Source: an uncultured Saprospiraceae bacterium
GTDB lineage: Bacteria > Bacteroidota > Bacteroidia > Chitinophagales > Saprospiraceae
Direction of reading: 5' to 3'
DNA length: 50,714 nt
Assembly (NCBI GenBank): GCA_938002665.1
Contig: CALLAE010000094.1
Span: 1 to 50,714 of the forward strand
In this document: in pieces, positions 5,954 through 46,952 of the stretch
How the letters are laid out: each line of letters starts with the position of its first letter
Numbering within the stretch: the stretch's first letter is position 1
The notes under the pieces: generated by a model
Database searches by the model: none
The model's input: the letters and a program-made list of their open reading frames with translations, nothing else
Told to the model about the DNA's origin: nothing
Made by a program: the position numbers and the translations under genes

Positions 5954-6970
5954 TCAGGGTTTCTTTCCTTCGAGCCCTATCGTTGTCACTACTGGGTAGT
6001 GGTCAGATAGGGGAGTCTTGATTATATCATGATCTAGTATTGTGACAGATTCATCTGTAAAAGTATAGTCTATTCTAAGGCCTAGAAATCTAGACTTATA
6101 GGTCTGACTTAGTCCTTGTCCTTTTTCTATAAAGGCATCTTTGTATTTCTCATCTATCATCCTGTATACATAAGATTGTGGAACATCATTGAAGTCACCA
6201 TTAAAGATGACAGGATAGGGTGAAGATTCTGCATGCTGTAGGACTTCTTTGAGCTGGCTAGTTCTCATCACTGCGTGGACATTGTACTTGTCCAAAATAT
6301 ATTTTGATTCATCCCAGATTTCTTTGACATTGTCTGTGAGGTTAGGGACCCTATTGGAGCTGAGGTGCATGGAGTAGATTCTGAACTTTTTGTCTTTTAC
6401 TTCTATGTCTACCCAGGTGGCATTATGTGACTTAGTGTCAAAGGCGAGATTGCCAGCATTAATTATTGGGTACTTAGAATAGATGGCAGTTCCTATATCG
6501 TCAGCCGCGGGATGCAGCGTATAGCCGATAAATATTTCTTTGTAATACTTTAGATGCCTGGGTAGTCTTTCTTGAATGCAGATGACATCTGGTTGTTCTT
6601 TCTTTATAAAATCTCTAAAGGCCGCTATTTTCTTGTCTCTGTTTTTGTGATGAAAATCTATCCTCGTCTTGCCGATATTATAGGTCATTACGGTAAGACC
6701 TTCCTGGTCAGTCACTGTAGGATTGAAACCTATAGTTCTTGTTACAGCTCCAAAACCGAGTGCTAAAAAAATGCCAGGCAGTAAAGCGTATTTAGGTTCG
6801 AAGGCGAGCCACAAAAAGAAGAAGAGGATATTGATTACCAATAAAAATGGGAAACCTAAACCAAAAAAGGAAAACAGCCCTGTCATCGCTGGGTCTATAT
6901 AAGGAGAGATGTATGCAAAAAGCATAGCCAAGACTGTGAGACAGTTTATACCATAAAGGAGTTTGCTCAC
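5954..6970 (-). CDS. Membrane-anchored endonuclease/exonuclease/phosphatase-family protein
   Basis: A 338-residue protein. Two or three hydrophobic segments fill the first ~90 residues, followed by an EEP catalytic domain with MTYNIGKTRI (metal-binding Asn), QPDVICIQE (catalytic Glu), NGDFNDVP (Asp/Asn) and a terminal SDHYPV (Asp-His). The family includes DNA nucleases, sphingomyelinases and phosphoinositide phosphatases, so the substrate cannot be read from sequence. It starts on the base right after the rhomboid stop, so translation is probably coupled. This arrangement recurs in Bacteroidota. Confidence 0.87.
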   Translation of the reverse strand: MSKLLYGINCLTVLAMLFAYISPYIDPAMTGLFSFFGLGFPFLLVINILFFFLWLAFEPKYALLPGIFLALGFGAVTRTIGFNPTVTDQEGLTVMTYNIGKTRIDFHHKNRDKKIAAFRDFIKKEQPDVICIQERLPRHLKYYKEIFIGYTLHPAADDIGTAIYSKYPIINAGNLAFDTKSHNATWVDIEVKDKKFRIYSMHLSSNRVPNLTDNVKEIWDESKYILDKYNVHAVMRTSQLKEVLQHAESSPYPVIFNGDFNDVPQSYVYRMIDEKYKDAFIEKGQGLSQTYKSRFLGLRIDYTFTDESVTILDHDIIKTPLSDHYPVVTTIGLEGKKP

Positions 6971-7882
6971 CTATTTCTTTTTGCTGGCTTTGTATAGAAA
7001 ATCCTTTTCTTCATCCGTGAGCTTATCGTATCCTTCGGAATTAATTTTGTCTAGGATACGATCTAGTTCTGCTTGCTGATTGAAAGCAGTGCCGGGGTTG
7101 TTAGCAGCGTCACTCTTGGCATTGTTATGGACAACTCTGAATTTATTTCTGGCAGTCTTTGTGATTTTCTTTTTTCTTGGCGCATTATAACTGTTGGTCG
7201 CTCGTACAAAGGGGGCAGTAATGTCAGTGCCGTTGCGTAAGAGATAGACGAATACGATACCGAACAGTGCTCCTCCCATATGAGCGAAATGCCCACCTTG
7301 ATTAAGGTTGCCGGCAGATCCCACTAGGTCCATAAACAGTAAGCCTAGTGCAATGTATTTTAGCTTAACAGGTCCCAGGAAAAGCAGATTCATTATATAG
7401 TCTGGTGAGAGCATCGCTGCTGTCCACACTATCGCCATCACTGCTGCTGAGGCACCGAGTGCTAGCGCAAGTCCGCCTGTGCCACCTAGATACAGATCGT
7501 GTATCATAAAAACCAGACCACCAAAAAGTCCACTGAATATATAGAGGGGTAGTATTTTACTATCTCCGATAAGATCTCCGACTATCTGACCAAACCAATA
7601 GAGCATCAACATATTCCAAAGTAGATGCCAAAAGCCAGCATGCAGAATCATGTGAGTAAAGAGACTCCAGGGTTGCTTGATCAATCTTGAAGGGCTAGAT
7701 GGAAGGGACAAAGTGTTCTTGACTGTGTTATAAAAACTATCTGGGTCAGATCCTGACTGAAAGTCGAAGACAAACAAAAGATTGATAATAATATACAAAG
7801 CGACATTGACGATTATGATCTTCGAAATCATATTGCCACTCTGAAAAGTCCTCTTTATATCGTTTACTATCGAGTCTACCAT
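6971..7882 (-). CDS. Rhomboid-family intramembrane serine protease
   Basis: A 303-residue polytopic membrane protein. The start at 7882 (MVDSIVNDIK) is preferred; a longer form from 7966 would add an odd hydrophobic leader. Rhomboid hallmarks are HAGFWHLLWNMLMLYWFG, the nucleophile in LALGASAAVM (Ser145) and the His of HFAHMGG (His201). The residue after Ser is Ala where Gly is usual. The soluble tail ends with a DUF6576-like segment (ILDKINSEGYDKLTDEEKDF) often found on Bacteroidota rhomboids. It presumably cleaves membrane proteins within the inner membrane; substrates are unknown. First gene of the run that includes cysS. Confidence 0.9.
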   Translation of the reverse strand: MVDSIVNDIKRTFQSGNMISKIIIVNVALYIIINLLFVFDFQSGSDPDSFYNTVKNTLSLPSSPSRLIKQPWSLFTHMILHAGFWHLLWNMLMLYWFGQIVGDLIGDSKILPLYIFSGLFGGLVFMIHDLYLGGTGGLALALGASAAVMAIVWTAAMLSPDYIMNLLFLGPVKLKYIALGLLFMDLVGSAGNLNQGGHFAHMGGALFGIVFVYLLRNGTDITAPFVRATNSYNAPRKKKITKTARNKFRVVHNNAKSDAANNPGTAFNQQAELDRILDKINSEGYDKLTDEEKDFLYKASKKK

Positions 7883-36277: not shown

Positions 36278-38550
<2,273 letters not shown>

Positions 38551-38556
38551 GTATTT

Positions 38557-39501
38557 ATGTTATCAATATCTATAAGTCAGATAAAATACATACTTGCGCT
38601 GCACAAGACGGGAAGTTTTAGTGAAGCTGCAGCACAGTGCTTTGTCACTCAGAGTACCCTCAGTACCATGATCAAAAAACTAGAAAATCAGTTTGACTTC
38701 AAGCTTTTTGATAGGAATTCTAAACCCATACGATTGACCAAAGAAGGACATTTAGTTATAGCACAGTTTAAGAATATAGATAGCCAATTTGAAAAACTAG
38801 AAGAGCTGGTACAAGAGACAAAAGATGAGATGCATGGCACCTTGTCTATAGGAATTATACCGACCTTAGCACCCTTTCTGCTCCCTTTGTTTTTAGATAA
38901 ATTGGTCTCTAGTTATCTTAATATCAATTTTCACATCCATGAGATTACAACTCGAGAGATAGTTACACGATTAAGATCTAAGGATTTGGATATCGGTATC
39001 TTATCCGTACCCATTACCGAAAAGGATCTGATTCAGAAAACTTTGTTTACGGAAGAGTTTTTTGTATACGACGCTTCTGATAACATCAAGCCAAATAAGA
39101 TTTTCAAGATAGAAGATATAGATGTATCTCGATTGTGGTTGCTAGAGGAGAGCCATTGTCTGAGCCATCAGATAGATCAGATTTGTCATCTGAAGAAAAA
39201 AAGAACCCAAGCTAATAACCTTATCTATAATGGCGGTTCCATCCATTCTTTGTTAGAGTTTGTTAAGATTAACAAGGGCCTCACTTTGGTTCCTAAGCTT
39301 GCGATAGCCAATAAGGTTCTAGTAGACAGTGATTTGATCTTTAAGTTGAAAAGTCCAGTACCTGCCAGAGAGATCGGCATAGTCACCCATCCTGACTTCG
39401 TCAAGAGAAGAATCCTTAAGGCCTTAGAGAAAGAGATTAAGTCAGCCGTCAAGCCTTTTTTGAGTAAGGCCAGAAAGGTTTTTATTGTGAAGCCCGACTG
39501 A
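38557..39501 (+). CDS. oxyR: Hydrogen-peroxide sensor and transcription activator OxyR
   Basis: A 314-residue LysR-family regulator. The helix-turn-helix is at residues ~15-45 (SFSEAAAQCFVTQSTLSTMI). The sensor domain has LLEESHCLSHQIDQICHL with Cys201 and Cys210. The spacing of eight residues between the cysteines equals that of the redox pair Cys199/Cys208 in E. coli OxyR. It should form a disulfide with peroxide and activate katG, which is divergent from it. The peroxidase fusion gene begins 65 bp downstream and may be in the same regulon. Confidence 0.95.
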   Translation: MLSISISQIKYILALHKTGSFSEAAAQCFVTQSTLSTMIKKLENQFDFKLFDRNSKPIRLTKEGHLVIAQFKNIDSQFEKLEELVQETKDEMHGTLSIGIIPTLAPFLLPLFLDKLVSSYLNINFHIHEITTREIVTRLRSKDLDIGILSVPITEKDLIQKTLFTEEFFVYDASDNIKPNKIFKIEDIDVSRLWLLEESHCLSHQIDQICHLKKKRTQANNLIYNGGSIHSLLEFVKINKGLTLVPKLAIANKVLVDSDLIFKLKSPVPAREIGIVTHPDFVKRRILKALEKEIKSAVKPFLSKARKVFIVKPD

Positions 39502-39566
39502 TAGGACTACCTATTTAGTAACCTTTCACCTTTTAGTGACATAAAGAGGGACTAAAACGGATTCCT

Positions 39567-42500
39567 ATGAATAAGAAGGCTTTACTTCTAGGTATAATAG
39601 CTTGTATTATTGTCTCCATTCAGGCTGTTCCGGCCATATTAGACGGGATATTAGACACAGGTGTCTTGTATAATTACGAAGATCAAGCTATCCCTGACTA
39701 CATATTTAGGGAGGATGTGCATCAGAGACCTATTTCTGATGAGGTATCCACGCTAGGTAGAGTCTTATTCTACGACAAGCAGTTATCACTCAATAGTTCT
39801 CTAGCTTGCGCTGGTTGTCATAAGCAGGAATTCGCTTTTGGGGATACCCTTGTAGCTAGTCCAGGTTTTGATAAAATCAATACTGAAAGGCACTCGACTC
39901 GGCTAGTCAATCTCAATTTTAGTCATATGCCAGAAGTTTTTTGGGATAGGCGCGCGGGACATCTAGACAGTCTACCGCTGATGGTTTTGTCTAACTCTAT
40001 AGAGATGGGATTCAGTGGTAAAGATGGCCAGCCCGCTGTAGATTCTTTGATAAAGAGATTGGAAGCGGTGCCTTACTATGATGAATTATTCCAACTGGCC
40101 TACGACGATGAGCAGATCACAGAGGCCAAAGTTAATTTAGCTCTTACAGAATTTGTAAGGTCTATCGTTTCTTATGATTCTAAATATGATGTAGGAAGAA
40201 CGATGGTAGATAGCGTCCAGCAGTTGTTCCCTAATTTTACGGCAGAGGAGAATCGTGGGAAAGAATTATACTTGTCTCCCTTCAGTGATCCTATACCTCA
40301 ATTTTTCGTACACGATATCCGCGAGCGAATGGAAGATAAGATGGGTTGTGCCGACTGTCACGGCATAGATAATTTCACCAGCAGGAAAACTTCTTTGACG
40401 GGTAATAATGGTATCGTAGGCGTTATAGACCATCCCAACGAAGTGGACACTACAGTCAAGCGGTCCCCTAGTCTCAGAGACTTAGTAAATAGAGACGGTA
40501 TAGAGCTAGGCCCTTTTATGCATGATGGCAGCCTGAGCTCATTAGCAAAAGTAGTAGAGCATTATAACACTATAGGCATAAGAGAAAAAACGATAGGGCT
40601 ACATCCTAACTTGAATATCGATGTTCCGAACGGAACTTATACAGATCCCACTGGGGGTGGCGCACAGGGGCCTTCTGGGTTTTTTATTCCTAGTACTAGA
40701 ATAGACCTTGAAGAGGAAAAGGCACTGGTCGCTTTTCTTAAGACGCTGACAGGAAGCAACATCTATACTGATCCTAAATGGTCTGATCCTTTTGATGAAG
40801 AGGGGAGGCTGAGAGTGGAGACTGCTTGTGCAAGTCTGATCCAGCATCATGAAACGATGGAAATCTGTGAGGGTGATAGTTACAGAGGCTTTTTCACTCC
40901 AGGTATACACAAAAAGAGAATTGCTAATCCAACTGGTTGTGACTCATTAGTAACTGTCGAAATAGCAATCAGACAATCGCCAGAGAAAACAGAAACAGTG
41001 ACCATTTGTGAATCAGAAGATTACTATGGACATACAGATGCTGGTTCGTATGTAGATATGTTGCCTTCAACAAATGGTTGTGATACTATAAGATATCTGG
41101 AAATGGAAGTTATCCCTCTGCAGAGGCAATATAGGTATGAATATTTTTGTGCAGGAGATAGTTTTGAAGGTTATACCGAGCCAGGAACCTACTATGATAC
41201 CATACCTAACTCTGATGGGTGCTATACACAAGTATACATGAGACTTAGATACCAGAGACTCAATCTCCAAAGAGAATATGTAGAAATCTGTCCAGGTTCC
41301 AGCTACAACGGATATACACGGCCAGGATGGTATACAGACACCTTAGATTGTTATAATGGGATCAGGACACAAATTGTTTTCATTGATGGTTATGAAATTT
41401 CTGAGGAGCATACTATCTGTGAAGGAGAAAATTTATATGGTTATAGTACTTCAGGAGAATATACTGATGTCTTTTCTTCTGTAGGAGAATGTGATTCCAC
41501 TAGATATCTTACGCTGCATGTTGCCCAGCCTTCAGAATCCTATCAGCTCATAGAAATCTGTGAAGGCGAATCCTTTATTAATTATTCTACGACAGGTTTG
41601 CATCACGACATTTTTGTCAATGCCGAAGGTTGTGACTCTACTAGATATATAGACCTGATAGTATTGCCACATTCTGAGTCTTACCTTTCTGAGAGTATCT
41701 GCGAGGGCGAGACATTGTATGGCTATGATGTTTCGGGATCATATACAGATGTATTTACTAATGCTTTAGGTTGTGATTCTACCAGACATCTTCATTTAGA
41801 AATATTAGAATCTACAGAATCATTTATCCCTATTGCTATCTGCGAGGGGGAGTCATATGAAGGCTATACTAAAGCAGGCGTCTACACTGACCTATTGACT
41901 AATCTGGCAGGCTGTGATTCTACAAGACAGATAGAGCTCGTAGTGTTAGAACATACACAGTCAGAAATAGAACTCGAGTTATGTTTAGGAGAGGAATATG
42001 AGAGCTATAGAGAATCAGGTCAGTACGAAGATGTTTTCCAGAATGCAGCAGGTTGTGACTCCACTCGTTATGTTAGTTTGGAAATACTACTGCCTTCTGA
42101 ATCTTATACAGAAATGAGTATCTGTGAAGGTGAGGAGCAGTGGGGCTATGATCGTGCAGGGGTCTATGAGGATGCCTTGACTAATGCAGTTGGCTGTGAT
42201 TCTTTTAGAGTGCTAGATCTGAGTATCTTAGAACATTCAGAAAGTTATGAAGAAGTGCATCTCTGTCCAGGTGAAGAGTATGAAGGTTACAGCGAGGGCA
42301 GCCATGAGGAGTCCTATGTCAATGCAGTCGGTTGTGATTCACTCAGACAGATAGAAATTGTAAAAATTGCTTATGATGATGCAATCTGCTCTCCGCAATA
42401 TGATAAGCAACCAAAGATGATGAGCGAGACAGCCTATATGTCAGCAAGTCCTAATCCTGTGGTAGATTACCTTAATTTGAATATTAGCAAAGCCGAACGC

Positions 42501-42668
42501 TTACCAGCTGAAGTCAGAATCTATGATAGTAATCATCGTATGATCTTTGCTGTGATAGTACATAATATGGAAACCAGTATAGATTTTACGGGCTACGATG
42601 CAGGACTGTATATCGTCCACGTCAAAGATGGAGAAAACATGTTCTTGACCAAGGTGCTGAAGATGTAA
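39567..42668 (+). CDS. Secreted di-heme cytochrome c peroxidase (CCP/MauG-type) fused to eleven repeats and a T9SS domain
   Basis: A 1033-residue protein. Signal peptide at 1-23. Residues ~50-410 are a di-heme CCP/MauG domain with CAGCH at 81-85 and CADCH at 261-265, plus FMHDGSLSSLAKVVEHY. Residues ~427-960 hold eleven repeats of about 47 residues with consensus ICEGExYxGY, GxYxD, N-x-x-GCDSTR; each carries two Cys. The last ~70 residues are a T9SS sorting domain (ASPNPVVDYLNLNI to the end). Stand-alone CCP is ~350 residues, so the fusion triples the length. Exported by T9SS, it would act at the surface, reducing peroxide or oxidising a protein partner. It follows oxyR by 65 bp. Confidence 0.93.
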   Translation: MNKKALLLGIIACIIVSIQAVPAILDGILDTGVLYNYEDQAIPDYIFREDVHQRPISDEVSTLGRVLFYDKQLSLNSSLACAGCHKQEFAFGDTLVASPGFDKINTERHSTRLVNLNFSHMPEVFWDRRAGHLDSLPLMVLSNSIEMGFSGKDGQPAVDSLIKRLEAVPYYDELFQLAYDDEQITEAKVNLALTEFVRSIVSYDSKYDVGRTMVDSVQQLFPNFTAEENRGKELYLSPFSDPIPQFFVHDIRERMEDKMGCADCHGIDNFTSRKTSLTGNNGIVGVIDHPNEVDTTVKRSPSLRDLVNRDGIELGPFMHDGSLSSLAKVVEHYNTIGIREKTIGLHPNLNIDVPNGTYTDPTGGGAQGPSGFFIPSTRIDLEEEKALVAFLKTLTGSNIYTDPKWSDPFDEEGRLRVETACASLIQHHETMEICEGDSYRGFFTPGIHKKRIANPTGCDSLVTVEIAIRQSPEKTETVTICESEDYYGHTDAGSYVDMLPSTNGCDTIRYLEMEVIPLQRQYRYEYFCAGDSFEGYTEPGTYYDTIPNSDGCYTQVYMRLRYQRLNLQREYVEICPGSSYNGYTRPGWYTDTLDCYNGIRTQIVFIDGYEISEEHTICEGENLYGYSTSGEYTDVFSSVGECDSTRYLTLHVAQPSESYQLIEICEGESFINYSTTGLHHDIFVNAEGCDSTRYIDLIVLPHSESYLSESICEGETLYGYDVSGSYTDVFTNALGCDSTRHLHLEILESTESFIPIAICEGESYEGYTKAGVYTDLLTNLAGCDSTRQIELVVLEHTQSEIELELCLGEEYESYRESGQYEDVFQNAAGCDSTRYVSLEILLPSESYTEMSICEGEEQWGYDRAGVYEDALTNAVGCDSFRVLDLSILEHSESYEEVHLCPGEEYEGYSEGSHEESYVNAVGCDSLRQIEIVKIAYDDAICSPQYDKQPKMMSETAYMSASPNPVVDYLNLNISKAERLPAEVRIYDSNHRMIFAVIVHNMETSIDFTGYDAGLYIVHVKDGENMFLTKVLKM

Positions 42669-42680
42669 TCTGTGATGAGC

Positions 42681-43040
42681 TTACATCTTAATGACCTTCT
42701 TGCTGTATGTTTTTCCTGAAACAAAATGTAGAACAATAATATAAGCTCCTGACTCAAACTCGCTCAGATTTGGTAGTTTGAGTCGGGTTTTGTTGTTAAT
42801 TCCAGTTCAAGATCTTTAAACACAAATTCTCCATTTGCGTTTGTACTGAAAGACTCAATAAAGCCATTTGAAGAATTATATAACTTCACAAGCTGACCTT
42901 CTTTTTTACTGTCTGAGGATTGGTAACAATTATCATGATCAAGATCATAAAAGAAAAAGCCAGATATGGAATCTATGGGGTTTGCAAAAACTGATGTCTC
43001 AGTAACAAATAGAATCAGTGTTACAAGCTGTAATTTTCAT
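42681..43040 (-). pseudogene. Shrunken T9SS/SdrD-like secreted protein remnant
   Basis: On the minus strand ATG 43040 starts a signal-peptide-like frame that is broken by a one-base shift, continuing as LILFVTETSVFANPIDS. Then comes an SdrD B-like unit (FFFYDLDHDNCYQSSDSK, NANGEFVFKDLELEL) to a stop. In another frame, LSEFESGAYIIVLHF and TYSKKVIKM give the end of a T9SS domain, stopping at 42681. Two shifts and a large internal loss are needed, so it cannot be functional. It converges on the peroxidase fusion with 12 bp between stops. Confidence 0.6.
42751..42784 (+). terminator. Inverted repeat that may end the peroxidase fusion transcript
   Basis: A perfect 10-bp stem GACTCAAACT/AGTTTGAGTC with 14-nt loop, followed on the plus strand by GGGTTTTGTTG. 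It lies 82 bp after the stop at 42668. It also sits at the frame break inside the T9SS remnant. Confidence 0.45.
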
Positions 43041-43222
43041 TAGTGTAAGGCTTTTATCAGAAATAGCCGTTAGATCTCTGGTTGATAAGAGGAGGTATTA
43101 CTTCCCAGATAATGAGGTTGGATAACTAAAATTATACAATTTTGGCCGCAGTTAGAATGACTATCTCTTATTTCACTTAGAATTCTAGATTTAAGCAATA
43201 TATTACTTCACAAATATGATAC

Positions 43223-44572
43223 ATGGATTTTAGAGTAATCGGAATAATAATAGTGAGTTGTCTCATTGCTTGTAGCCCTAGAATAGTACCTGCTGACGAA
43301 AGTGCAAGTGCGGAAGAAATAAAGATGCCATCGATGTTTCCAGATTCTATACCTGCTGTGAGGATAGAGCTGGCCTCCACGATGGTAGGACCTTGCGAGC
43401 CTTCCATCTGTATCAATCCCACCAAGCCGACACAGATAGTTGCAGGTTCTGTACTGAATAACTTATATGTATCTAACGATGGCGGTGTCACCTGGACTAA
43501 AGACAAGCTCAGCTCTAGCTGGGGAGTCTATGGAGACCCAGTCATCAGAGCCAATTACAAAGGTGATTTTTTCTATGCCCATCTCTCCAATCCTGACGGC
43601 GCACCCTACGCCAGCGAATCTTTCCTTGATAGAATAGTCATCCAAAAATCTGAAGACGGTGGCAAGACCTGGGATGATGGCTCCTACACTTTGCCGCGCT
43701 CTCCCAAAGACCAAGATAAACAATGGTTAGCCATAGACCCTAGAGATAATACTGTCTATATTACCTGGACAGAATTTGATCTCTATGATAGCCCTAAGCC
43801 AGAAGACAAGTCCAGAATCCTCTTCTCCAAATCCACTGACGATGGTGAGAGTTGGACAGATCCCATCATGCTAAGTCAGTACGAAGGCAATTGTCTGGAT
43901 AGCGATGACACGACCGAGGGGGCAGTGCCGGCGGTAGGCCCCAATGGAGAAGTCTATGTAGCTTGGGCTTATAACGAAAAGATATATTTTGATAAGTCTT
44001 ATGATGGCGGGAAGACCTGGCTGGAAGAAGATCTCGTCGTGTCAGACCAACCAGGTGGCTGGGATATTATGATACCCGGAATCATCAGAAGTAACGGCAT
44101 GCCTATCACCTGCGTGGATAGATCTAGCAGTCCACACAAAGGCACCATCTATGTTAACTGGAGCGACCAGCGTAATGGCGAAGACGACACAGATATATGG
44201 GTAGCAAGCAGTAATGATGAGGGCCAGAGCTGGTCAGCACCTGTCAGAGTAAATGATGATGCACGAGGCAAGCAACAGTTCCTTACATGGATGGAAGTGG
44301 ATCAGAGTAATGGCTATGTGTATTGTGTTTTTTATGACAGGAGAAATCATGAAGATGTGACCACTGATGTTTTTATAGCAGTATCCAAAGATGGCGGCAA
44401 GACCTGGGAGAATAGAAAGGTAAACTCTAAAAGCTTCACTCCCAATCCCTCCATTTTCTTTGGTGATTATAATGACCTCAGTGTCGTAGATGGTATCGTC
44501 CGACCGATATGGACGCAGCTGGAGGGCTGGCAGTTAAGTGTCTGGACAGCGCTGGTGAATGTGAAAGAGTAG
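43223..44572 (+). CDS. Sialidase-like BNR-repeat lipoprotein
   Basis: A 449-residue protein with a lipoprotein signal ending LIAC (Cys17). At least six Asp-box (BNR) motifs occur at regular spacing: SNDGGVTWT, SEDGGKTWD, STDDGESWT, SYDGGKTWL, SNDEGQSWS and SKDGGKTWE. This fits a six-bladed beta-propeller of the sialidase/neuraminidase superfamily. The Arg triad and FRIP motif of true sialidases are not obvious, so glycan binding or another hydrolase activity is possible. Surface or periplasmic. Confidence 0.85.
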   Translation: MDFRVIGIIIVSCLIACSPRIVPADESASAEEIKMPSMFPDSIPAVRIELASTMVGPCEPSICINPTKPTQIVAGSVLNNLYVSNDGGVTWTKDKLSSSWGVYGDPVIRANYKGDFFYAHLSNPDGAPYASESFLDRIVIQKSEDGGKTWDDGSYTLPRSPKDQDKQWLAIDPRDNTVYITWTEFDLYDSPKPEDKSRILFSKSTDDGESWTDPIMLSQYEGNCLDSDDTTEGAVPAVGPNGEVYVAWAYNEKIYFDKSYDGGKTWLEEDLVVSDQPGGWDIMIPGIIRSNGMPITCVDRSSSPHKGTIYVNWSDQRNGEDDTDIWVASSNDEGQSWSAPVRVNDDARGKQQFLTWMEVDQSNGYVYCVFYDRRNHEDVTTDVFIAVSKDGGKTWENRKVNSKSFTPNPSIFFGDYNDLSVVDGIVRPIWTQLEGWQLSVWTALVNVKE

Positions 44573-44723: not shown

Positions 44724-46952
44724 GTGTTAAAATCATTTTTGCGAATCATCTTTCTATTGTCAGCATGTTCTTATGTTTTCTCACAAGAAGTAGTTGTAAA
44801 ATATAACGAAGCGAATAATATAGCTGGAATAATATATGATGATATTAAAAGACCAAAAACGTCTGAAAGATCAAGAATTCTATCTTATCCAGCTACTGGT
44901 AGTTATTCTCCAACACATTACGCTAATCCGCCTTTAGGCATAGACAAGAATGTAGGAGCTTGCAATTATCTCTACTTTCCGACGGATGGGAAATTGATGC
45001 CAGGAAAGCAGTATAACCTGAAACTCAAAATAAAATTTGATGAAAGTTACGATGGGATGTCCTTTTATCAAGATAATTTTGGAATTGCTCTGACCACTGA
45101 TTTGTATCCCAATTCATTTCCATCCTACTGGGGTCTTTGGGATCACACAAATGAATCTTTAGGCCTTTTTGAAGGTGGCAGAATAATCGAAATAGAGCAA
45201 GAATTCAGACCTTTATGCACATCTAAGTATATTGTACTTGGCGTATTCAGAAATAGTGAGTTGGAGCACCTCCACTGTTTTATGTGCTATTACCCATTCG
45301 AAGTATATGAGCTAAGTGTTACAGAATCCATTAACCCAAATAAAGCTTGCAAGTATTTTGGTGATGCTTTCAAGAAAGAGGAGCAAAAGGACTTCACAAA
45401 AAAGGAGTACAATATTTATTTTGAGAGTGGATCGTCGCAAATTTCCCCCTTGTACTATATGCTCATTGATTCTCTCAGCAATAAATTAAAATCTTCAAAT
45501 GAAATAGTAGCACTAATGGGTCATACGGATATGAGTGGCAATGATAATGTAAAGCTAGGTGCTGCTAGGAACGCTGTCGTAAAATCAGCCTTAGTCAGAG
45601 GCGGTGTAGATTCTTCCAGAATTAAATTGTATAACCTTGCCGATAACCAGGCTGCTGATTACATCTTGAATACTGATCGACGTGTAGAACTAAGTCTAGT
45701 CAGAGGAGAGGAACACAGAAAAATATATGAAGAAGCTCTGTCAGCAATAAGAATTAAGAACTACCCCTCCGCACATAAATTACTTTGTAATTCTTGGCTA
45801 GAAAAAGTTCCACCTAAAAAGGCTTTGACGGCAATTTTCGATTGTTGGGCTGATGAAGAAAGAGAAATTTTTTTAAAAAAAGAACTGCTAAGAAGAGTGA
45901 GATCTAAATTCTACGGGAAAAGAGCTTTGAATTTTACACTAGATTCTCTTCACCATGAATGGCTAAAAGGTCGAGGCCTTGAAGCCCAGCTCAGTATGCT
46001 CCGTATGCCAACCTCAGATCATAACTGCAGTTTTAATACTGATATTCTAAGAGACTCTTTACTAAGAAATGAAGCAGACAAAATCTACCTGAGTGAGGGC
46101 TTTCCTCAGCGTGGTAAAGTAGGGCCCAAGGTAAGTCAAGTGCTGCCAGAATTAATCTTGACTAGTGATAATCCAGTTTATCTTGCAACCTACCTTCCCA
46201 AATTCAAGACGGCCTGTGAACTTAAAGAGTTAGAGTGGCCTTACTATGCTAGACTCTATGATAAGATAAGCATCCTGAAAAGTGGACTTCAGCGGTATGG
46301 GACTCAGATGATTTGGGGCAAAACACCTCCTGTTCCTCTCCATCCTTTTGAAAATCCTGAGCTAGTGGATGAATATCGTAGACAAGTCAAACTTGCTCCT
46401 TTTACAAAGCATACTTCAGTCTACCATAATGATAAGCAAGTAATAATAGATAAGGAATTGGTCAAGCAATTGAACAATATTTACATAGCTGATCAGTTCT
46501 ATCGAAATCAAGTCCATACTTTAACCAGGAATTTCCCTAAGATGGATGAAACAGATTCATTGAACCAAATCCAGGTGAGGAAAATTCTAGACGAACGAGG
46601 ATGGCTAGGACCAGAAGTAGTAGGCGAAAGAGGAAATGCAACTCTGTTTTTAGTAATACAACATGCAGATTTAGAAACTCAAATCAAATATTTGCCTATG
46701 ATGCGAAAGGCGGTATCTAAAGGAAATGCGAGAGGACGAGATTTAGCCTTGCTAGAAGATAGAGTAGCACTTGGCCAAGGCAAGCAACAAATTTATGGAA
46801 GCCAAATTTGGGAAAATAAGGAAACTGGCTTGCCTTATGTTGCTCCATTGAGAGATCCTGAAAATGTAAACCAAAGGAGAAAAGAAATCGGATTAATGCC
46901 TATAGAGCTGTATTTAAGGAGATGGAAGATTGAGTGGAGAGATGGAAAATGA
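44724..46952 (+). CDS. OmpA-domain protein with C-terminal DUF6624 region
   Basis: A 742-residue protein. The start is GTG at 44724, opening a signal peptide (LRIIFLLSACSYVFSQE). Residues ~30-210 are beta-rich with paired Cys. Residues ~225-330 form an OmpA C-terminal domain (YNIYFESGSSQISPLYYMLI, VALMGHTDMSGNDN, NTDRRVELSLV), which binds peptidoglycan. The last ~230 residues resemble DUF6624 (DERGWLGPEVVGERG, LVIQHADLETQIKYLPMM, LEDRVALGQGKQQIYGSQ). It probably tethers to the cell wall; the DUF6624 role is unknown. Confidence 0.8.
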   Translation: MLKSFLRIIFLLSACSYVFSQEVVVKYNEANNIAGIIYDDIKRPKTSERSRILSYPATGSYSPTHYANPPLGIDKNVGACNYLYFPTDGKLMPGKQYNLKLKIKFDESYDGMSFYQDNFGIALTTDLYPNSFPSYWGLWDHTNESLGLFEGGRIIEIEQEFRPLCTSKYIVLGVFRNSELEHLHCFMCYYPFEVYELSVTESINPNKACKYFGDAFKKEEQKDFTKKEYNIYFESGSSQISPLYYMLIDSLSNKLKSSNEIVALMGHTDMSGNDNVKLGAARNAVVKSALVRGGVDSSRIKLYNLADNQAADYILNTDRRVELSLVRGEEHRKIYEEALSAIRIKNYPSAHKLLCNSWLEKVPPKKALTAIFDCWADEEREIFLKKELLRRVRSKFYGKRALNFTLDSLHHEWLKGRGLEAQLSMLRMPTSDHNCSFNTDILRDSLLRNEADKIYLSEGFPQRGKVGPKVSQVLPELILTSDNPVYLATYLPKFKTACELKELEWPYYARLYDKISILKSGLQRYGTQMIWGKTPPVPLHPFENPELVDEYRRQVKLAPFTKHTSVYHNDKQVIIDKELVKQLNNIYIADQFYRNQVHTLTRNFPKMDETDSLNQIQVRKILDERGWLGPEVVGERGNATLFLVIQHADLETQIKYLPMMRKAVSKGNARGRDLALLEDRVALGQGKQQIYGSQIWENKETGLPYVAPLRDPENVNQRRKEIGLMPIELYLRRWKIEWRDGK

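Follow-up and report, generated by a model that had tools for sequence, protein, structure and literature searches.

Canonical bacterial cytochrome c peroxidases (CCPs) use a Met residue as the sixth ligand of their high-potential heme, and the di-heme enzyme MbnH acts on the protein MbnP. Tyr-His ligation has been described for MauG and BthA, of which the latter, although Tyr-ligated, has peroxidase activity towards an artificial donor, and Gln103, Pro107 and a Glu of MauG are given as distal-pocket residues conserved across bacterial CCPs, MauG and BthA (PMC6405878, in its available part). In Methylococcus capsulatus, cytochromes of the MauG family occur at the cell surface, according to the accessible portion of PMC4831470. 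The gene described here belongs to this circle of proteins. It lies on a stretch of 50,714 nucleotides from an uncultured Saprospiraceae bacterium (GenBank assembly GCA_938002665.1, contig CALLAE010000094.1, positions 1 to 50,714), hereafter called the window, and encodes, in a single intact open reading frame (ORF; 39567-42668, plus strand, 1033 residues), a di-heme enzyme followed by eleven two-Cys repeats and a sorting domain of the type IX secretion system (T9SS).

This architecture is real and recurs in other genomes. Each of its parts is of a known kind, and their combination with an altered peroxide pocket appears to be new; no published description of it was found in the literature searched, which covers few subscription papers. 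With slightly better than even confidence, we read the protein as a di-heme enzyme of the MauG/MbnH kind that would be held at the cell surface by a stalk and would carry out peroxide-driven oxidation outside the cell. Such an enzyme would leave the cytoplasm through Sec, receive its two hemes in the periplasm from the cytochrome c assembly system of the cell, pass through the T9SS and be anchored at the surface via its type A sorting domain; the eleven beta repeats, braced by disulfides, would serve as the stalk. With peroxide that arrives from outside, it would most likely oxidise a donor or a surface substrate and so remove or exploit peroxide extracellularly. The gene suggests that Bacteroidota have a broad and seemingly unstudied group of MauG/MbnH-like di-heme enzymes with T9SS export, which would bring this chemistry out of the periplasm and onto the cell surface. 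It also offers a natural experiment: in one clade, two pocket residues described as critical in MauG have both been exchanged, with the other catalytic residues preserved.

The comparisons below refer to 61 enzymes, i.e. that of the window and the 60 best-ranked other loci (L numbers) of a family search in 398 genomes, 153 of which contained an enzyme match at E <= 1e-40. The protein is laid out as follows:

39567..39626, plus strand: signal-peptide-like N-terminus (about residues 1-20), a basic and then hydrophobic start judged by eye from the translation
39747..40190, plus strand: CCP_MauG domain, N-terminal heme half (residues 61-208); PF03150, E 1.2e-33, in the genome search E 1.6e-32
39807..39821, plus strand: heme site 1, CAGCH (residues 81-85); C81 and H85 kept in 61/61
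39942..40004, plus strand: inter-heme Trp126 and altered distal pocket with Leu136, Val140 and Glu146, from the 61-enzyme alignment, ungapped against 1iqc
40347..40361, plus strand: heme site 2, CADCH (residues 261-265); C261 and H265 kept in 61/61
40518..40568, plus strand: MHDGS motif and Tyr333 (residues 318-334), candidate sixth heme ligand; Tyr333 in 60/61
40854..42386, plus strand: eleven two-Cys repeats of about 47 residues (residues 430-940), from a repeat hidden Markov model (HMM) and an AlphaFold2 (AF2) model of three repeats
42450..42656, plus strand: T9SS type A sorting domain (residues 962-1030), PF18962 and TIGR04183

Enzyme family and heme ligation

A preliminary description, made from the sequence alone, had proposed a CCP/MauG-type enzyme with two CXXCH sites 180 residues apart, and both the motifs (CAGCH at residue 81, CADCH at residue 261) and the score against PF03150 (CCP_MauG; 117.3 bits, cut-off 25.6) bear this out. 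The assignment can be refined. The closest solved chain is 6e1c ('Di-heme enzyme'), which we take to be MbnH; it is matched over residues 43-409 with E 4.2e-22 by the protein itself and 1.2e-26 by a three-row profile, and CCPs and MauG entries follow. In the printed alignments, Tyr333 is paired with a Tyr in 6e1c and with a Met in 1iqc, presumably a heme ligand of this canonical CCP, so that the Met expected of a canonical sixth ligand is replaced by Tyr. Both CXXCH sites, Trp126 and Glu146 are conserved in all 61 enzymes, and the only exception to Tyr333 is a Val. Owing to the Tyr at the sixth-ligand position and to its closest relatives, the enzyme seems, as far as sequence tells, to resemble MauG and MbnH more than canonical CCPs, yet it falls outside both curated families: the best NCBIfam family, TIGR04039 ('MbnH family di-heme enzyme', residues 53-409), gives 142.4 bits, well under its cut-off of 362.85, which six relatives tested miss as well (156.6-176.2 bits), and the MauG model TIGR03791 gives 105.8 bits, under its cut-off of 443.85.

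With the MbnH type (TIGR04039; 6e1c), the window enzyme shares both CXXCH sites, the Tyr at the sixth-ligand position and the distal Glu, whereas it has no linked MbnP, has lost the distal Gln and Pro, and has gained the repeats and the T9SS tail. It is like MauG (TIGR03791) and BthA in the distal Glu and in the Tyr at the position aligned to their Tyr-His ligation (as given in the available part of PMC6405878), and like MauG in the inter-heme Trp, but carries Leu136 and Val140 in place of the equivalents of Gln103 and Pro107; among the ORFs nearby, no mau genes were noticed. With the canonical CCP 1iqc it has in common the PF03150 fold family, Trp126 and Glu146, and differs from it in having Tyr333 for Met and a surface-export tail. 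A collagen-like Gly-X-Y insert (residues 350-375, about 40614-40691), which is longest in L007, separates Tyr333 from the enzyme's last helix.

The candidate Tyr ligand brings in a serious rival explanation, according to which the protein would be a protein- or polymer-modifying enzyme. Its Tyr-ligated di-heme site would become high-valent and, over a long range, oxidise aromatic side chains on a partner at the surface, as MauG does with preMADH and MbnH with MbnP. The replacement of the CCP Met by Tyr333, the inter-heme Trp126, the fact that an MbnH family is the best NCBIfam match, and MopE-type metal-binding motifs on the same chain in three relatives (see below) all speak in its favour. 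We nevertheless consider it unlikely, as both the TIGR04039 and the MauG cut-offs are missed, the sole MbnP match of the genome (PF20243) is found on a contig (C141) without any PF03150 match, and clustering of the neighbours yielded no family common to more than 8 loci and no conserved partner gene. For the cross-linking of surface polymers at which the preliminary description had guessed, the analysis gave support neither for nor against. It should also be noted that Tyr ligation alone is not decisive for function, since BthA is Tyr-ligated and yet a plain peroxidase (with an artificial donor; available part of PMC6405878).

Recurrence and export

Two other metagenome-assembled genomes (MAGs), titled Saprospiraceae and of the same genus as the window, carry the same architecture, each with nine repeats according to the HMM: L006 (G338:C425), whose copy leaves its contig within the T9SS tail, and L007 (G368:C20), whose tail matches PF18962 below the cut-off (E 0.0018, 19.0 bits). 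The preliminary description had named an architecture unique to this genome and broken elsewhere as a finding that would speak against it, and the search of other genomes contradicts such uniqueness. Since two further MAGs of the genus contain the gene, the architecture is not an assembly accident; the notion of a chimeric ORF created by metagenome assembly, to which a fragmented draft genome (180 contigs, 87.5% complete) might lead, is therefore hardly credible. Altogether, 3/14 genus genomes searched have the long-repeat form. Matches beyond the 60 fetched loci were judged by the open-frame length given in the table, and none of the matches listed exceeds 626 residues.

The T9SS tail of the window protein scores above both cut-offs (PF18962, E 1.4e-7, 32.1 bits, cut-off 27; TIGR04183, 30.1 bits, cut-off 23), which upholds the earlier prediction of a surface-displayed protein. 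Tails of this kind at E <= 0.001 are found in 35/61 enzymes, and in a class-wide search, in which 51/395 genomes matched at E <= 1e-40, six of the nine new loci fetched end in a T9SS-like tail as judged by eye; predicted T9SS display is therefore not peculiar to the window gene. The genome itself has 150 scored PF18962 matches among 264 candidates, as well as two PF01578 cytochrome c assembly genes. The former statement that CCPs normally are periplasmic thus needs qualifying, in view of the tails of these relatives and of the surface cytochromes of M. capsulatus: MCA2590 (SACCP) and MCA1906, which we liken to the window protein by description, are di-heme proteins of the CCP/MauG type recovered from the cell surface, but differ in being described as non-covalently attached (PMC4831470, accessible portion).

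What follows the enzyme domain varies considerably. Sorted by script rules, 20 of the 61 enzymes have no tail, 15 a short one, 11 have ICEG repeats like those of the window protein (1 to 11), 8 an 'LPIE' spacer (without a Pfam match in the one tested, L052), 3 MopE-type motifs and 4 other tails; the Pfam domain fn3 is present in 2/61. The three enzymes fused to MopE-type 'Cu-binding' motifs (PF11617) are encoded at L070:6911-8956 (E 9.4e-36), L066:3848-6004 and L079:3173-5182. MopE of Methylococcus has a kynurenine copper site (available part of PMC3423442), and the fusions could possibly place a substrate or a metal site on the enzyme's own chain, although PF11617 alone is no proof of copper binding.

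The repeats

The HMM finds eleven repeats between residues 430 and 940 (domain E-values 1.1e-13 to 1.9e-22), in agreement with the number, length and Cys pairs first reported; as it was trained on the repeats of the window, L006 and L007, it checks the register and is no independent proof. The repeats alone occupy 511 residues, and the 600 residues originally given are reached only when the tail is included. Ten repeats are 45-47 residues long, the fourth has 43 with a displaced second Cys, and the first Cys residues are spaced by 47 residues except at this fourth repeat. Throughout the 29 repeats of the three proteins the first Cys never varies and the second hardly does, and no CXXC motif was seen in the protein outside the heme sites, each repeat containing one paired-looking Cys set. 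At the DNA level the copies have diverged: the only array that a tandem-repeat finder detects in 40700-42700 is one of 13 bp with two copies.

Structure prediction of three repeats, based on an alignment of related repeats only, gave a confident model (mean predicted local distance difference test, pLDDT, 90.1; predicted TM-score 0.59), all beta with about three strands per repeat. The best Foldseek match of this model in the PDB is 9flp_A, the neck of grappling hook protein A (GhpA) of Aureispira, likewise a member of the Saprospiraceae (E 4.9e-5, probability 1.00), followed by another fragment of GhpA, 9flw_A (E 2.7e-3). The superposition on 9flp_A is poor (TM-score 0.32 on the query, root mean square deviation 11.0, 14% identity). 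Two profiles of the repeats found nothing in the PDB set up to E 10, and the single sequence only two chance-level viral capsid matches (E 1.5 and 1.6), so that we speak of a fold resemblance to the GhpA neck for which homology is not supported by sequence. The strongest match in the viral library is the model of a 'putative signaling protein' from an uncultured marine phage, A0A8D9FS04, which fits the repeat fold (model of window 41547-41969) better than any PDB entry (E 5.4e-9, TM-score 0.44).

The repeats are not confined to the enzyme. Searched with a profile of the 29 copies, the genome gives 17 additional open frames at E <= 0.01, and at least 15 other ORFs have matches at E <= 1 in regions taken from 14 of the contigs involved. 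Of these 15, 14 ORFs were scanned for T9SS sorting models of type A or B; 11 have a match at E <= 0.001, five of them above the curated cut-off, and 3 have none; the fifteenth (C43) figures in the PF18962 list of the genome. In the window itself, a further protein containing such repeats (five HMM matches, some weak) is encoded at 3-2111 on the minus strand; it contains DUF7619 and a T9SS tail just under cut-off, and its ORF runs past the left edge.

On the basis of the model and this distribution, the repeats are best read as a generic, probably disulfide-braced stalk of the adhesin type rather than a redox chain. The preliminary description had envisaged that a chain of disulfides or redox-active thiols could lie next to the peroxide-reacting enzyme, and an array of redox-active thiols or Tyr residues reacting with it could be suspected from the two Cys per repeat and from the frequent Tyr at positions 10, 13 and 19. 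As the repeats recur in unrelated ORFs, with the same Cys pair and similar use of Tyr, and as relatives of the enzyme carry other spacers or none, we dropped the redox chain as leading idea and regard such an array as very improbable; a special coupling of the repeats' Cys residues to the enzyme is not supported. A self-crosslinking Tyr stalk was rejected as well, because enzyme-linked and other repeats are not clearly told apart by how often they carry Tyr (position 19, 37/45 versus 39/49; position 10, 27/45 versus 17/31; position 13, 36/45 versus 23/40); only position 13 leans towards the enzyme-linked copies, and the HMM used for this comparison is biased towards them.

The distal pocket

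In the window enzyme, Leu136 and Val140 replace the distal Gln and Pro, whereas Glu146 is kept. Among the 61 enzymes, Gln is found at position 136 in 53 and Pro at position 140 in 57, and 51 have the full set of Gln, Pro, Glu and Tyr. Leu136 together with Val140 marks exactly the three long-repeat enzymes (3/3, 0/58 others); other departures are Thr136 in three, Thr140 in one and Leu136 alone in two. A quick maximum likelihood tree of the 61 enzymes, with midpoint root and SH-aLRT support only, groups the three long-repeat enzymes (99); L040, which has a single repeat, stands next to them (98), and all four belong to a set of seven enzymes with ICEG repeats (96). All seven of these basal ICEG clade rows deviate from the Gln/Pro pair, against 2/54 others, though rows of one clade are not independent events.

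Since both Gln and Pro are replaced, peroxidase activity cannot be assumed, and the pocket is the strongest caution that the sequence raises against doing so. The exchange of two of the three conserved distal-pocket residues speaks against the 'heme peroxidase' of the preliminary description. A second serious rival arises here: the pocket may have drifted from peroxide chemistry, and the long-repeat enzymes might be di-heme proteins of surface electron transfer or ligand binding. This would fit the confinement of the Leu/Val pair to the long-repeat enzymes, the departures throughout their clade and the separate second di-heme gene retained in the genome, a 389-residue lipoprotein-like paralogue (L001) in which, as judged by eye, Gln, Pro, Glu and Tyr are all present. 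We hold it to be rather unlikely, given that Glu146, Trp126, Tyr333 and both heme sites are kept although the three long-repeat proteins are only 58-64% identical to one another over the aligned part. Distinctly unlikely, in our view, is an extracellular protein-modifying enzyme of the MauG class with a pocket re-tuned by the Gln-to-Leu and Pro-to-Val changes, which would sit on an adhesin-type stalk and oxidise aromatic residues or other groups in surface polymers of its own or neighbouring cells.

Genomic context and the favoured reading

Two genes lie upstream of the enzyme gene:

36278..38503, minus strand: katG catalase/peroxidase, NF011635, 1254 bits, cut-off 981; divergent from the oxyR-like gene
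38557..39501, plus strand: OxyR-like LysR regulator; best NCBIfam model NF008361 (OxyR), 163.6 bits, below the cut-off of 329

The enzyme gene starts 65 bases downstream of the LysR gene on the same strand, and a terminator scan found no terminator-like site between them; in 38400-43300, the promoter and terminator scans gave 12 and 2 sites, no more than chance would produce (14.6 and 2.4 expected). The katG-oxyR pair is adjacent in 8/8 genus genomes in which the regulator was found (of 14).

A surface-anchored MauG/MbnH-like enzyme on a stalk, driven by peroxide, is supported by the domains and heme sites, the conserved residues, the match to 6e1c, the PF01578 genes and the T9SS tails, and further by stalk repeats shared with T9SS-type proteins, the resemblance to the GhpA neck and the katG and oxyR-like neighbours in this genome. 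Several points weigh against it. The distal Gln and Pro are replaced, and prediction of the enzyme domain from a three-row alignment (mean pLDDT 27.9) gave no usable model of the heme pocket. The gene is next to katG-oxyR only in the window genome and absent at the seven other pairs of the genus, and none of the other 60 enzyme loci, on contigs whose flanks often are short, has a KatG homologue. Membership in an OxyR/KatG regulon was therefore rejected as proof of function.

Downstream, the window encodes a BNR/Asp-box repeat protein (43223-44572) and a protein with OmpA and DUF6624 (44724-46952), without evidence of a link to the enzyme. Elsewhere, the di-heme gene has in its vicinity genes for an extracytoplasmic function (ECF) sigma factor (at up to 8 of the 60 loci), FecR (up to 7) and a TonB-dependent receptor (up to 5) (L044:3565-7728, L071, L056, L060, L048 and L045; checked with Pfam for the L044 trio), and L060 has, at 6492-7691, a second, lipoprotein-like CCP_MauG gene (PF03150, E 5.9e-45) near the T9SS-tailed one.

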